Notes under the pieces: generated by a model
Seen by the model: the letters and a program-made list of their open reading frames with translations, nothing else
Told to the model about the DNA's origin: nothing
The model's database searches: none
Translations under genes and position numbers: made by a program
Source of the DNA: Planctomycetota bacterium
GTDB taxonomy: Bacteria > Planctomycetota > Planctomycetia > Pirellulales > UBA1268
Reading direction: 5' to 3'
DNA length: 64,000 nt
NCBI GenBank assembly: GCA_018970785.1
Contig: JAGWVR010000003.1
Coordinates: forward strand, 1 to 64,000
In this document: positions 20-63,382 of the stretch, piece by piece
Layout: the number at the start of each line of letters is the position of its first letter
Numbering within the stretch: the first letter of the stretch is position 1

Positions 20-1096
20 ATGAACGCTCTGCGTTTCACGCGCTGTGCCGCCGCGCTCGTGCTCGCTCTGACTGTGACGGCGGCCCATGCCGTCACGATC
101 GACATGGTGTCGGTGGGGAACGCCGGCAACGCCAACGACGCGACCGGCTACGGCGGCGTGGCGTACGACTACCAGATCGCGAAATACGATGTGACGATCG
201 GGCAGTACACGGCGTTTTTGAATGCCGTCGCCGCGACCGATACCTACTCGCTCTACAACGCGAGTATGGCGACCGACCTCAACGTGGCAGGCATTTCACG
301 AACGGGTGTTTCAGGCTCGTACACCTACAGCGTGATAAACAACGGCGGCGACAGTGCCAACCGCCCGATCACGTACGTGAGTTGGTTTGATTCAGCCCGC
401 TTTGCGAACTGGATGGCGAACGGCCAGCCGACGGGAGCGCAGAACAGCACGACGACAGAGAATGGTGCCTACAACGTGAACGGGGCGACGACGGGGAATG
501 CTCCGGCGAAGAACGCCACGAACCCCAACACGAGCGCCGCCCCGACGTTTTACATCCCGACAGAGAACGAGTGGTACAAGGCGGCGTATTACTCGCCGGC
601 GCTCAACTCGGGCACGGGCGGCTACTACACGTATGCCACGCGGAGCAACACGGCCCCGGGTAACGTGGTCGGCAGCGGTGTGAATCAGGCGAACTACTAC
701 AACGGTGTCTATTCAGTGACGCAGTCGTCGAGTTACTCGGGGAGCCAGAACTACCTGACCGACGTGGGTACGTTCACGAACAGTGCGAGTTTCTACGGCA
801 CGTTCGACCAGAGCGGGAATGTGTATCAGTGGAACGATCTGGATGGCGCAGCCGGCTCGTCTCGTGGGTTCCGCGGCGGCGCCTGGGGCAGCGTCGCGTT
901 CAACTTGTCGTCCTCCTTCAGGTTCGGGATGCCGGTCGCCCCGTCGGACGAGAGCGGCGGCATCGGTTTTCGTCTCGCAAGTCCGGTCAGCGGCCCCTCC
1001 GGCGTTCCGGAGATCGACGCAGCGGGAGCGCGCCTGGCGATGGTGCTGATCGTGTTCGGACTGGCGCTCCTGGAGCAACGCCGGCAGGGCCGCTGA
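20..1096 (+). CDS. FGE/C-type-lectin-fold secreted protein with VPEID-type sorting tail; candidate DGR target (variable) protein
   Basis: A 358-residue exported protein. Residues 1-24 form a signal peptide ending near AHA. The body has the SUMF1/FGE-sulfatase fold: IAKYDVTIGQYTAFLNAV, PITYVSWFDSARFANWMA, FYIPTENEWYKAAYY, DQSGNVYQWND, FRGGAW and GIGFRLA. The two catalytic cysteines of true formylglycine-generating enzymes are absent, so enzymatic activity is unlikely. The fold more probably serves ligand binding, as in DGR variable proteins. The C-terminus VPEIDAAGARLAMVLIVFGLALLEQRRQGR is a short motif, one hydrophobic helix and a basic tail, which is the architecture of PEP-CTERM-class exosortase substrates. 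The ATG lies downstream of TGGAG. An avd-like gene follows about 180 bp downstream. That it is a DGR target is inferred from fold, variable-region codon pattern and the Avd neighbour; the template repeat is not in the window. Confidence 0.85.
   Translation: MNALRFTRCAAALVLALTVTAAHAVTIDMVSVGNAGNANDATGYGGVAYDYQIAKYDVTIGQYTAFLNAVAATDTYSLYNASMATDLNVAGISRTGVSGSYTYSVINNGGDSANRPITYVSWFDSARFANWMANGQPTGAQNSTTTENGAYNVNGATTGNAPAKNATNPNTSAAPTFYIPTENEWYKAAYYSPALNSGTGGYYTYATRSNTAPGNVVGSGVNQANYYNGVYSVTQSSSYSGSQNYLTDVGTFTNSASFYGTFDQSGNVYQWNDLDGAAGSSRGFRGGAWGSVAFNLSSSFRFGMPVAPSDESGGIGFRLASPVSGPSGVPEIDAAGARLAMVLIVFGLALLEQRRQGR
863..979 (+). other. Candidate DGR variable region (VR) at the 3' end of the lectin-fold gene
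   Basis: This is the last FGE-fold segment, from RGFRGGAW to GIGFRLA. The invariant edges are conserved family sequence. Between them, many codons are NNC with diverse first two bases: GGC AGC GTC at 887-895, TTC at 899, 917 and 923, GTC GCC at 935-940, GAC at 947, AGC GGC GGC at 953-961. All of these are reachable from AAC by adenine substitution, the signature of adenine-specific mutagenic retrohoming. Adenine is rare here (about nine in 887-964), as expected for a diversified copy of an A-rich template. Exact boundaries cannot be set without the template repeat. Confidence 0.6.
1004..1093 (+). other. VPEID/PEP-CTERM-type C-terminal sorting signal
   Basis: The last 30 residues are VPEID, then a hydrophobic stretch (LAMVLIVFGLALL), then EQRRQGR. 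Such tripartite tails are processed by exosortases at the membrane. A matching exosortase is encoded at about 50.3-51.6 kb. The tail lies immediately after the variable region, so diversification would not damage sorting. Confidence 0.75.
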
Positions 1097-1171
1097 CGGT
1101 TGCCTGTGAACTTTATCTCTTTGACCCTTTGTCCCCTTTTGATAACCGGTGTTCGTGAGGTCGGCGCGTGC

Positions 1172-1230
1172 CCCGGCAGGAGGCCTGTTTTCCTGTCGGG
1201 GCGTCGCCGTCGCTCTGAGCGGCGGCGATG
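1172..1230 (+). other. Two consecutive GC-rich hairpins between the DGR target and avd
   Basis: The first is CCCCGGCAGGA / TCCTGTCGGGG, an 11-bp stem with one G-T wobble. The second is GCCGTCGCTC / GAGCGGCGGC, 10 bp with one wobble and a very short loop. A T-rich stretch (GTTATTTTTTGGGG) follows. In known DGRs a hairpin or cruciform just downstream of the VR helps retrohoming. Here the position, about 75-130 bp after the target stop codon, would allow that or a terminator role. Function is inference. Confidence 0.4.
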
Positions 1231-1274
1231 CTTCGCGTTATTTTTTGGGGTCTGCCAAGGTGGCAGGGTGGTTC

Positions 1275-2210
1275 ATGGCGCGAGCGGTGAAGCAGCCGAT
1301 CGTGCTCATGAAGTGGTACCGGGTGGTGTCGTGGATGCTCGACCGCGTGGACCACTTTCCGAAGAACCAGCGATTCGTTTTCGGGCAGCGACTGGCCGAG
1401 CGGTCGATCCATGTGCTGGAGTTGCTCGTGGAGGCGACGTGGTCGCAGGACAAGACGGCGATCTTGGCGCAGGCCAACCGCGAGATGGAAGTACTGCGGT
1501 GGCTCGTGCGGCTAGCCCACGACCGCAAGATTCTCACGGCCAAACAGTACGAGGCGGCGGCCGAGGGTATCTACGAGTGCGGCCGGATGGTGGGCGGTTG
1601 GCAAAAAGACTCCCAGCGGCGGGCGGCCTCGTCACCGCCACCGCGCAGCACCCTTGTCGGGACAGGGGTTCAATTTGTCCGGACCGTCGGCGGACGAAAT
1701 CGGACGAAAGGCGAAATCCGTCGCCGGTCGTCCTCGCTGGCGAAGACGTGGCGGCATTTCGTCCATTTGTCCGGATTCGTCCAGATCGACCCGTGGACGA
1801 ACGATCCCCTTACCGCGGCTTGGGTTGCGGCATTTTTGCCGTTTCGTCCGCCGCCCCCTCGGGGAACAACTCCGCGACCGTCGGCAGCACGTCTACGTCG
1901 TCCCTGGCCTTCCCGGTCGGCTTCCATGCCCGAGGCGGGCGACCGCGACCGCAGTTGGAGCGCTCGCGGGAAGCCCGCGGACGACGGCGCCGGCCGCCGG
2001 AGGTGGCCGGCGCGGCTGGGGGAAACCCGCGGTGTTTCCCGCGGGAGCGTGACTGGCCCCGCAGCATGGACGGCGCCGCCCGCCGACGCCCAAACCTCCT
2101 CGTCGACCCGAACCACCGCGCAGAAGCCGCGAGTCTCCCTCCGAGCGGCCGAGCGCCTCCCCCGCGGCAAGGAGAAAGAACCTTGCGTCCTGGAAAGGCT
2201 GGGCAGGTGA
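1275..2210 (+). CDS. avd: Avd-like DGR accessory protein (four-helix bundle), with abnormal 200-residue read-through tail
   Basis: Residues 1-115 match the bAvd four-helix-bundle family that binds the DGR reverse transcriptase and template RNA: KWYRVVSWMLDRVDHFPKNQRF, FGQRLAERSIHVLELLVEA, ANREMEVLRWLVRLAHD and ECGRMVGGWQK. The ATG at 1275 follows AAGGTGGCAGGGTGG. Family members usually stop near residue 115-125. Here the frame stays open to 2210 through Arg/Ser/Pro-rich, low-complexity sequence that also runs across an intergenic repeat copy (1991-2049). The tail is therefore probably not natural protein. Either the frame is open because of high GC, or a deletion has joined avd to unrelated DNA and removed a template repeat and reverse transcriptase that normally follow. 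The Avd identity is fairly secure; the real 3' end is not. Confidence 0.75.
   Translation: MARAVKQPIVLMKWYRVVSWMLDRVDHFPKNQRFVFGQRLAERSIHVLELLVEATWSQDKTAILAQANREMEVLRWLVRLAHDRKILTAKQYEAAAEGIYECGRMVGGWQKDSQRRAASSPPPRSTLVGTGVQFVRTVGGRNRTKGEIRRRSSSLAKTWRHFVHLSGFVQIDPWTNDPLTAAWVAAFLPFRPPPPRGTTPRPSAARLRRPWPSRSASMPEAGDRDRSWSARGKPADDGAGRRRWPARLGETRGVSRGSVTGPAAWTAPPADAQTSSSTRTTAQKPRVSLRAAERLPRGKEKEPCVLERLGR
1660..1830 (+). repeat. Inverted TTTGTCC/GGACAAA-like repeat cluster downstream of the Avd domain
   Basis: Several related short words occur on both strands: ATTTGTCCGGA near 1674, GGACGAAATCGGACGAAAGGCGAAAT near 1693-1715, and CATTTCGTCCATTTGTCCGGATTCGTCC near 1755-1782. The second block is roughly the reverse complement of the third, so the two could pair across about 40 bp. 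No protein homology was seen here. It may be regulatory RNA, a recombination scar or degenerate template sequence; none of these is established. Confidence 0.35.
1991..2049 (+). repeat. Dispersed GC-rich intergenic repeat, copy D (partial)
   Basis: CGGCCGCCGGAGGTGGCCGG followed by GGGGGAAACCCGCGGTGTTTCCCGCGG aligns with the left part of copy A at 9688. It keeps the inner dyad GGGAAAC...GTTTCCC. The right part, with the GGACAAAGGCC dyad, is missing. It is the most diverged and shortest of the four copies. Confidence 0.5.
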
Positions 2211-2296
2211 GGGCAACTCAGCCGCCCGACACGGGTTGAACGGGATGACGCCCCGCCGACGTGGCAGGCGTGCATCCGCGTTCCAACGACCCGTCG

Positions 2297-3235
2297 ATGC
2301 CGCACACCACTACCGCCGCCGCCAGTGTGCCGCTCGTCGCCGTCTGGTTGTCACTGTCGATCGCCACGGCTTGCGCCGCGGCCGGTACGGCTTGGCTCGC
2401 GGTGTCGCGAAGGACACCGTTTGCCTGGTGGGGGAACTTCGTCCGCTGGTCGCTGGTGCTCGTCACGGCCCTGGCCGTCGCCGACCTCGCGCTGCGCTCC
2501 TCCGAGCCGGCCGAGACCGAGGGGGCGTGGGTCCTCGTGCGCCTCGCGGCCGGTCTGGCGGGAATCCTCCTGGCGACCGCGATCCTCGCCGCGCCGCCGA
2601 CACGTGGCGACCGATGGGGCTGGGCGTGGACGGGGGGTATCGTGGCGGCGCTGGCCCTGGCGTGCGTACGGCTCCAGGCGATCGCGGCTCCGCAGCGACT
2701 CGACTTCGACCCCTTCCTCGCGGTTCCCGTCGAGGAGGAACCGGACGAAACCGGCGCCCACGCGATCACCGACCGCGGTACGGCAATCCACCTCCGCCGC
2801 TACGTCACCCCCGAGCACGAGCCGCTCGTGCCGGACGGGTTCGACGGGCGCGTGATCGTCGCCGACTCGTCACGGTCTCCCTCCAACTGCCACGGATGGG
2901 TGTTCACCGGGGGACGGTTCCAGGTCGGGAGCGCCGACGTCGAGCAAATTCTTTCCGACAACGGCTACGTCGCGGTCGCCACACCGCGCCCCAACGACCT
3001 GATCGTGTACCGCGACGGCAAAGGCGCGATCGTCCACACCGGCCTGGTCAAGGCGACCGGGCCCGACGGTTTCGTCCTCGTCGAGAGCAAATGGGGGCCG
3101 CTCGACATCTACTGGCACACCCCCCACGACCAGGTCTACTCGCAGCGCTACGAATACTGGCGCAGCCCGCGCGCGGGCCACGAGCTCGGGATCGTCGCGC
3201 CCTCGGAAGCACCGCCCGGCACAGTGGGGCGTTGA
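2297..3235 (+). CDS. Membrane protein with C-terminal NlpC/P60-like domain
   Basis: About 312 residues. The N-terminal half has four hydrophobic segments (VPLVAVWLSLSIATACAAAG, WSLVLVTALAVADLAL, LAGILLATAILAA, GGIVAALALACV). The C-terminal half contains SNCHGWVFTGG, then RPNDLIVYRD and IVHTGLVK. The Cys-then-His spacing resembles NlpC/P60 or CHAP papain-like hydrolases, which would suggest cell-wall or peptide cleavage. The match is by pattern only. A GTG at 2261 in the same frame is an alternative start; neither start has a clear ribosome-binding site. It converges with crcB, only 12 bp away. The function is not established. Confidence 0.6.
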   Translation: MPHTTTAAASVPLVAVWLSLSIATACAAAGTAWLAVSRRTPFAWWGNFVRWSLVLVTALAVADLALRSSEPAETEGAWVLVRLAAGLAGILLATAILAAPPTRGDRWGWAWTGGIVAALALACVRLQAIAAPQRLDFDPFLAVPVEEEPDETGAHAITDRGTAIHLRRYVTPEHEPLVPDGFDGRVIVADSSRSPSNCHGWVFTGGRFQVGSADVEQILSDNGYVAVATPRPNDLIVYRDGKGAIVHTGLVKATGPDGFVLVESKWGPLDIYWHTPHDQVYSQRYEYWRSPRAGHELGIVAPSEAPPGTVGR

Positions 3236-3785: not shown

Positions 3786-4919
3786 ATGAACCGCAAGACG
3801 CTGTTGGCACTGGCCGAGAAGCACGGCACCCCGCTGTTCGTCGTCGATCACGACGAGTTGCGGCGCAACTACAAGCTCTTCCGCCGCCACTTTCCCCGCG
3901 TCCAGATCTACTACGCGGTCAAGGTCAACAGCGACCCGGCGATCGTCGAGACCTTCTACGACCTCGGCAGCAGCTTCGACGTCGCCAGCATGCAGGAGTT
4001 CCACACCGTCCACCGGCTGATCGCCAAGCTGCCCGCCAAGCAGCGCCAGGACTTCATCTGGGACAAGATCATCTACGCCAACCCGATCAAGCCGATCGAG
4101 ACCCTCCGCGAGCTCGACTGCTACAAGCCGCTGGTGACCTACGACAACCACGAGGAGGTCAAGAAGATCGCCAAGCACGCTCCGCACGCCGGGCTGGCGC
4201 TGCGGCTGCGCGTGCCGAACACCGGCTCGATGGTGGAACTGTCGAGCAAGTTCGGCGCCCTGCCGGGCGAGGCGGTCGAGCTGATCCAGTTCGCCCACGA
4301 CGCGGGGTTGGTCGTCGAGGGATTGAGCTTCCACGTCGGCAGCCAGTGCACCAACCCCGAGAACTACATCCAGGCTCTGCACCTGTGTGCCGGAGTGTTC
4401 GCCGAGGCGGCGAGCCGTGGCTTCAGCCTCAAGCTGCTCGACATCGGTGGCGGATTCCCCGCGGCCTACGACGATTCGGTGCCGAAGTTCGCCGATCTGG
4501 CGGGCAAGATCAACCACGAGATCGACCGGCTGTTCCCCGAGCCGATCGAGATCCTCGCCGAACCGGGGCGGCTTCTCGTCGCCTCGGCGGCGACCGCCGT
4601 CGCGAAGATCATCGGCAAGGCGTTTCGCAACGACAAACTCTGCTACTACGTCGACGACGGCGTCTACCACACCTATTCCGGCGTGATCTTCGACCACTGC
4701 ACCTACCACCTGAAGGCCTTCAAGCGGGGCACGCCGCAGTTGTGCGCCGTCTTCGGGCCGACCTGCGACGCCCTCGACACGATCAGCCTCGCCGAGCACC
4801 TGCCCGACCTCGAGATCGGCGACTACCTCTACAGCGAGAACATCGGCGCCTATTCGGCCGCCAGTTCGACGCACTTCAACGGCTTCCCACCGGCGACGGT
4901 GGTTCACGTCAACCGCTGA
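3786..4919 (+). CDS. Ornithine/lysine-type PLP-dependent decarboxylase (alanine-racemase fold)
   Basis: A 377-residue fold-type III PLP enzyme. Visible motifs are YAVKVNSD (PLP-binding Lys), HVGSQ, DIGGGFP (phosphate loop), EPGR, and FGPTCDALD carrying the catalytic Cys. It probably decarboxylates ornithine (or lysine or diaminopimelate) as a first step of polyamine synthesis. The length fits ornithine decarboxylase better than diaminopimelate decarboxylase, which is usually longer and has other substrate motifs. Substrate remains an inference. A TATACT-like sequence near 3712 sits in a small inverted repeat CGGCAG...CTGCCG and may be the -10 element. Confidence 0.85.
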   Translation: MNRKTLLALAEKHGTPLFVVDHDELRRNYKLFRRHFPRVQIYYAVKVNSDPAIVETFYDLGSSFDVASMQEFHTVHRLIAKLPAKQRQDFIWDKIIYANPIKPIETLRELDCYKPLVTYDNHEEVKKIAKHAPHAGLALRLRVPNTGSMVELSSKFGALPGEAVELIQFAHDAGLVVEGLSFHVGSQCTNPENYIQALHLCAGVFAEAASRGFSLKLLDIGGGFPAAYDDSVPKFADLAGKINHEIDRLFPEPIEILAEPGRLLVASAATAVAKIIGKAFRNDKLCYYVDDGVYHTYSGVIFDHCTYHLKAFKRGTPQLCAVFGPTCDALDTISLAEHLPDLEIGDYLYSENIGAYSAASSTHFNGFPPATVVHVNR

Positions 4920-6181: not shown

Positions 6182-7015
6182 TCACTGCGGCCGGCGCGGG
6201 CGCTCGGGGCGCTCGCCGCCGTCGGGTCCGCCCGGAGGTCCGCCACCGGGAGGACCTCCGTCGCGCGGCCGGAAGCCCTCGCCACCCGGCCCACCCGTGC
6301 CGCCCCCTGGGGGCCCGAATCCTCGCCCCTGCATGCGGGCACCGGCGCCCTGCATCTGGGCGCGGAGGCGAATCATGTCTTCGGCGAACTTGCCGAGCTC
6401 GGCGCGATCGAGCTTGCCGTCACCGTCGGTGTCGAACGTCATCGCCCGCTCGACGATCCGGTCGGGCGTGAGCCCACCACCTGGGCCTCCCGGTCCACCC
6501 GGCGGCCCGCCGGGGCCTCCGGGAAACTCGCCGCCCCCAGGAGGGCCACCCGCGCCGCCCGGGGGACCGAATCCCTGCCCCTGGCCCGGCCCGCGCTGCC
6601 CGCCGGGAGGGCCACCAGGACCACCGGGAAAGCCTCCCCCCGGAGGGCCACCGGGTCCGCCGCCGGGGCCACCCTCCGGAGGCGGCGGGGGGCGGAACTC
6701 CTCCGGGTCGATCCGACCGTCCTTGTTGGCATCGAGCGTGAGCAGCGCCGCCGGCGCGTTCTTGATCTCCTCGGCCGACAAGGCATGGTCGCCGTCGGCG
6801 TCGAGCGCGTGGCGGAGCGGATCATGGGGTGGGGGTCCCGGAGGACCGCCGCGATCGCCCCCCGGCGGACCTCCGGGCTGCTGGCCCGGGCCACCCGGTG
6901 GGCGCCCCTGGCCTCCCGGCCCGCCGCGCTGCCCCGGGGGCTGCGCCAGCGCCGCACCGGCGACGGCGACGGCCGCCGCCACCGTCGCACACCGGATCCA
7001 CGTCGTCGTCGTCAT
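6182..7015 (-). CDS. Secreted Gly/Pro-rich EF-hand protein
   Basis: 277 residues with a signal peptide (MTTTTWIRCATVAAAVAVAGAALAQ). Three canonical calcium loops are present: DADGDHALSAEE, DANKDGRIDPEE and DTDGDGKLDRAE. They are separated by long GGP/PPGG tracts that make up more than half the protein. Exported EF-hand proteins of this kind are frequent in Planctomycetota and are assumed to bind calcium outside the cytoplasm. The partner is unknown. The low-complexity tracts produce the long antisense ORF on the plus strand, which is a shadow. Confidence 0.85.
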   Translation of the reverse strand: MTTTTWIRCATVAAAVAVAGAALAQPPGQRGGPGGQGRPPGGPGQQPGGPPGGDRGGPPGPPPHDPLRHALDADGDHALSAEEIKNAPAALLTLDANKDGRIDPEEFRPPPPPEGGPGGGPGGPPGGGFPGGPGGPPGGQRGPGQGQGFGPPGGAGGPPGGGEFPGGPGGPPGGPGGPGGGLTPDRIVERAMTFDTDGDGKLDRAELGKFAEDMIRLRAQMQGAGARMQGRGFGPPGGGTGGPGGEGFRPRDGGPPGGGPPGGPDGGERPERPRRPQ

Positions 7016-62920: not shown

Positions 62921-63382
62921 GTGACGAGTGTCGAGAGCCTTCGTAGTCAATGCGACGCCAGCGCAGACGTCTTCAGCTGGGAGGAGTTGCCCGATCTCCT
63001 GGCCGCCGAGGAACTCTGCGAGTGTGCTGGCGAAACTGCGCTCGAGGCCCCGTGTGCGGCCGAGGTGCTGTGTGGCGCCGTACCCTCCGTCATCCCGTTG
63101 GCGGCCAAGGATGACGACGACGATTTCGAGGATGAAGACGAAGAGGATCTCGACGACGAGGAAGATGACGACGACGACGAGGACGAGGAGGACGAGGACC
63201 TCGACGACGACGAGTGGGAAGAAGTCGACGACGAGGAGGAGGAAGAGGACGACGAGGACGAGGACGACGAAGAGGGTGATGACGAGGACGAGGAGTGGGA
63301 CGACGACGAGGACGACGATTGGGACGAAGACGAGGAAGATGAGGACGAAGATGAGGAAGAGGACGATGACGACGACGATTGA
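62921..63382 (+). CDS. Hyper-acidic protein with poly-Asp/Glu tail
   Basis: 153 residues from a GTG preceded by GGAGGT. Residues 1-63 form a short domain with five cysteines (SQCDASADVFSWEELPDLLAAEELCECAGE and LEAPCAAEVLCGAV). The last 90 residues are almost entirely Asp and Glu with a few Trp, Val and Gly. Such tails can bind calcium or basic proteins, or mimic nucleic acid. No family recognised. The Ser-rich ORF on the other strand is the shadow of this tract. Confidence 0.65.
   Translation: MTSVESLRSQCDASADVFSWEELPDLLAAEELCECAGETALEAPCAAEVLCGAVPSVIPLAAKDDDDDFEDEDEEDLDDEEDDDDDEDEEDEDLDDDEWEEVDDEEEEEDDEDEDDEEGDDEDEEWDDDEDDDWDEDEEDEDEDEEEDDDDDD

Follow-up and report, generated by a model that had tools for sequence, protein, structure and literature searches.

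The 3′ end of the gene at 20–1096 is very probably the variable region (VR) of a diversity-generating retroelement (DGR), carried by a stranded target that sits beside a leftover avd gene in a cassette broken just after the avd core. The gene opens the window, by which we mean the whole 64,000-nucleotide stretch analysed, itself the start of a 92.9-kb contig from a planctomycete genome of 3.38 Mb that is 69% complete. DGR features present at the locus are a VR with variation restricted to template adenines, an Avd, and a target of the C-type-lectin type; reverse transcriptase (RT) and template were found nowhere in the 69%-complete genome, and we class the locus as a DGR target with a remnant avd and not as a complete DGR. 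The first-pass annotation had read this 3′ end as the product of adenine-specific mutagenesis, a reading that we retain; the broken machinery next to it had gone unnoticed.

The target (variable protein) gene, on the forward strand, encodes 358 aa with a signal-peptide-like start, an FGE-sulfatase/C-type-lectin-type domain (Pfam PF03781, E=2.3e-18), and a C-terminal tail (VPEID, a hydrophobic stretch, then RR) that resembles a PEP-CTERM sorting signal. The tail of the window protein gave no model match, while that of its homologue in a relative (G087, below) passes the Pfam PEP-CTERM model. A profile of the target family matches variable protein 1 of Treponema denticola (2y3c, E=1.3e-7), and in this profile comparison the segment encoded by 863–979 aligns with the C-terminal GGSW...GFRLA segment of 2y3c, so a C-type-lectin-type fold is predicted for the target. 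An AlphaFold model of the target was set aside for its mean pLDDT of 47. The signal peptide, domain and tail together suggest that this protein is probably exported, anchored in the envelope and engaged in binding, the function expected of its family. We found no paper in the open-access literature that treats DGRs and PEP-CTERM together.

The reference for the VR is an intact cassette in a relative of another genus of the same family (G087, contig JAIXPT010000183.1), where target, avd, RT (RVT_1, E=1.4e-21) and template follow in that order, and where template and VR, over ~129 bp, differ at template adenines and at no other base. The window VR is homologous to this template over 852–984 (+ strand; blastn match to 5312–5183 of the relative's locus), with A-restricted differences, and alignment of codons to two templates and to other VRs places its hypervariable core at 881–961. 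Read in frame from 872, the codons are CGC GGC GGC GCC TGG GGC AGC GTC GCG TTC AAC (the AAC at 902), then TTG TCG TCC TCC TTC AGG TTC GGG ATG CCG GTC GCC (the GCC at 938), then CCG TCG GAC GAG AGC GGC GGC ATC GGT TTT CGT CTC GCA. The NNC codons remarked on in the first-pass annotation are thus as listed there, the AAC at 902 included. Thirteen of them (at 881, 887, 890, 893, 902, 917, 923, 935, 938, 947, 953, 956 and 959) face A-containing codons, namely AAC, AAT, AAG or GAC, in the templates of relatives; derivation from AAC, which had been claimed for all, is slightly off, as the template has GAC at the position of the GCC at 938. Other NNC codons of the VR (GGC GGC, TTC at 899, TCC TCC, ATC, CTC) are fixed.

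The abundance of NNC codons is of little use here. They make up 21 of the 36 codons read from 872 (58%) versus 43% of the remainder of the gene, and a neighbouring gene has C at 59% of third codon positions; since another 36-codon window of the target gene holds 22 NNC codons, we reject their excess as evidence. On its own, such a codon pattern proves little in a genome this rich in GC.

Downstream of the core, the conserved 3′ end of the VR, ATCGGTTTTCGTCTCGCAAGTCCG (961–984, + strand), lies in an IMH-like position and is shared with the templates up to CGCAAG, directly after which template and VR of the intact cassette part ways. Six bases within the core, GGGATG at 926–931 (+ strand), are an unexplained insertion, absent from the known templates and from the other VRs aligned, including that of a same-genus contig (G003:C265). 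A perfect 6-bp stem with a 4-base loop (CTCCGG CGTT CCGGAG, 997–1012, + strand) stands 3′ of the VR and resembles a DGR hairpin; it is not conserved, being missing from the intact G087 locus, and so is possibly coincidental.

Adenine restriction was counted over 34 aligned codons, leaving out the GGG ATG insertion and one extra codon of G087, with templates that come from relatives of other genera (G087 and G062) and not from this species. Relative to the G087 template, the window VR is changed at 20 of the 29 adenines and at 5 of the 73 remaining bases (p=3.6e-10); relative to that of G062, the counts are 20/29 and 8/73 (p=1.5e-8). At the 29 template adenines the window has G 12 times, A 9, T 6 and C 2. 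Alignment to a template had been the check proposed for adenine-specific mutagenesis, an even spread of differences over the four bases being the result that would count against it; run with these heterologous templates, it gave no such spread, and together with the adjacent Avd the counts bear the proposal out. With heterologous templates some non-A differences (five relative to G087) and the 6-base insertion are left over, and these count against the reading, as does the reliance on templates of other genera. Within the genus, 18 of the 19 differences between the window VR and that of G003:C265 fall in template-A columns, the remaining one being AGG versus AGA.

Ordinary divergence among paralogues could in principle give a similar picture without any hypermutation, through selected ligand loops of the FGE family in a GC-rich genome with codons ending in C or G. 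The genome does contain about ten paralogues of the target, the NNC share is unexceptional, and template-A columns vary in all of these genes: three paralogues that are not DGR-like (on contigs C101, C36 and C3 of the same genome) differ from the templates at 19–20 of the 29 adenine columns, since these are natural loop positions of the family. These three also differ at 23–31 of the 73 other columns, and the discriminating signal is therefore the near-frozen state of the non-A and third positions in the window VR. Of the third codon positions, 1 in 34 is changed within the VR versus 48 in 95 upstream, and relative to G087 the non-A columns of the VR differ at 5/73 versus 305 of 777 upstream coding bases (p=2.6e-9), the upstream part having diverged at all positions. 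With real A-rich templates existing for the VR sequence and an Avd adjoining the target, the counts contradict paralogue divergence, which we regard as highly improbable. The paralogues of this genome form a gradient of non-A differences (5–7, 8–14, 14–16, 16–18, 23 and more), as might be expected if targets drift once their mutator is lost.

The end of the target gene appears to have a history of its own. Over 961–1104 (144 bases) the window is 99% identical to G003:C265, and the range is 95–99% when C233 is included, while identity in the neighbouring gene is no more than about 72%; this suggests that the 3′ segment of the target was recombined or transferred between species, and the same-genus identity of the 3′ end may come from recombination.

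The gene following the target, at 1275–1640 (+ strand), is avd, the DGR accessory gene. Its product is recognised by NCBIfam NF033474 DivGenRetAVD (101.8 bits, cut-off 80) and by Pfam bAvd (PF22296, E=1.1e-21). The core is intact; its own stop codon is lost and the frame reads through to 2210, whereas the G087 avd stops at its own stop codon soon past the equivalent of the break point. A search of the GTDB contig collection gave a sole close match to this Avd, in G087, a Planctomycetaceae MAG, and none was found in viral contigs. The two proteins are 97% identical, with dN 0.018 against dS 0.54, so Avd was under constraint for most of its divergence from G087. Either the break is recent or Avd is still serving something.

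Homology to the cassette (window 786–1651, blastn match to 7258–6435 of the G087 locus) ends just after the avd core, at 1651/1652, and beyond that point RT and template are absent. Their place is taken at 1651–1952 by DNA of other origin, 72–76% identical to three contigs of other genomes (G026:C538, G069:C153 and G006:C10) whose matching stretches carry no cassette; the G026 match starts exactly at 1651. So sharp a switch in homology, on a contig that starts at the target gene, and the tendency of hypervariable repeats to break assemblies would be consistent with a chimeric assembly in an organism that does have RT and template at this locus. The next gene (2261–3235, + strand; weak, sub-cut-off CHAP match) argues otherwise: it also follows the target in G003:C265, which places both sides of the break in one locus and speaks for a correct join. 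Nor was there an RT contig elsewhere in the 69%-complete genome, and we consider a chimera unlikely. A short dispersed repeat at about 1957–2056 recurs several times in this genome and also in one of the same genus (G001).

The species' own template and RT were sought in several ways. An ungapped scan of both strands of the window under the rule 'VR base or A' found no template, the best other position scoring 81/124 in low-complexity sequence. In the 69%-complete genome, allowing up to three mismatches and any base other than A to derive from A, only the VR itself was recovered; the RT–template region of a relative had no DNA match there, and no RT was found by RVT_1, RT protein or DNA. An RT and template in the unassembled part of the genome might nonetheless still diversify the VR in trans, with the local Avd perhaps supplying the system. 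We would give this a minor share of the probability, though the largest among the alternatives. The low dN/dS of Avd relative to G087 (about 0.03) speaks for it, as do the incompleteness of the genome, the dispersed VRs common within single genomes of the family, the complete DGR of a same-genus genome (G001), albeit one with a different template, and remote targets documented elsewhere (PMC3521204, PMC4891356). Beside the failure to find RT or template in the assembled 69%, it is opposed by the five genomes that carry a VR and reach a completeness of 90% or more (G002, G022, G026, G063 and G078), in which neither a cognate template nor an intact cognate RT was found. Most likely the VR no longer changes; the exception would be an RT encoded in the ~31% of the genome that is missing.

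Related loci in the family show similar deletions. G062 keeps only the C-terminal end of RT and the template, and G030 and G078 retain about 21 codons of avd. Two loci (G063:C2 and G061:C204) share one common junction at which avd, RT and template have been removed; on another contig of the former genome (G063:C194) an RT fragment of ~53 residues of the close type remains. Searching 72 family genomes with the VR/template pattern found 25 places (2 templates and 23 VR-like) in 15 genomes and none with the reversed pattern; because the pattern fixes the non-A positions, these matches cannot themselves test adenine restriction. Two matches of the template-core pattern in viral contigs, both in unrelated phage-like genes, were rejected as chance.

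The stranded-target reading implies the following course. A DGR RT with Avd would have reverse-transcribed a template RNA in which AAC codons abound, misreading adenines, and the cDNA would have replaced the VR stretch (retrohoming), so that NNC codons came to stand on an FGE/C-type-lectin scaffold that is fixed elsewhere. A later break just after the avd core would have removed RT and template from the locus. A hypermutated gene can thus be recognised from sequence alone after its mutator is gone. In one family, related loci have decayed to different degrees: the cassette is intact, reduced to avd, in fragments, or stripped to the target. What becomes of DGR targets once the RT is lost can therefore be tested directly. 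Tentatively, and with less confidence than we would give even to action in trans, we suggest that in this family a scattered repertoire of surface proteins with VRs outlasts its mutators, that RT/template cassettes are lost repeatedly, and that persisting targets may come back into use if transfer brings in a new cassette, which would be possible because the 3′ end of the VR and its non-A positions are nearly identical across genera.

Among known systems, the DGR of Bordetella phage BPP-1 (Mtd/Avd/bRT) diversifies a phage tail protein; it shares with the window Avd homology (4dwl, weak, E=0.012) and the same mutational logic, and is unlike the loci here in that their hairpin is not conserved. 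Another is the Avd-type DGR of G087, which like the window has a target with VR, an Avd, A-restricted variation and the common VR 3′ end; the window differs in having neither RT nor template, and in the 6-base insertion and few non-A differences of its VR from the G087 template. In Treponema denticola, FGE-sulfatase proteins serve as DGR targets, some targets are remote, and target genes persist in isolates without RT and TR; repeated gain and loss has been proposed (PMC4891356). The window resembles those remnants in its FGE-sulfatase target and in that RT and template were not found, and differs in its planctomycete host, its PEP-CTERM-like tail, the retained avd core, and copies dispersed across genera of a family. 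In Pseudogulbenkiania NH8B there are several targets, the distal ones lie close to an RT that is strongly mutated, and the genome still has an intact RT (PMC3521204); the 69%-complete genome of the window, by contrast, yielded none. DGR targets left behind by RT and template have thus been described already, and the window adds another case, with an avd remnant. A large metagenome survey notes that its own method would miss VRs not adjoining an RT (PMC8144416).

Several further loci are of note. The complete but different DGR of the same genus (L058, on G001:C72) has an FGE target, avd, RT and template, with VR at about 4521–4640 and TR at about 6232–6351 differing at 13 positions, all template A and none elsewhere. 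A DGR-like locus (L019, on G039:C205) has VR 1223–1376 and TR 1826–1979, the template straight after avd, with 15 differences at A and 1 elsewhere. An AAC-rich, template-like stretch near an RT homologue (L089, on G072:C343, 1753–1854) is probably part of a further DGR, and a target homologue (L055, on G001:C27, 1465–2504) seems frameshifted, giving two overlapping matches in different frames. Near the far end of the window, at 63100–63380, is a reading frame with a long Asp/Glu run.
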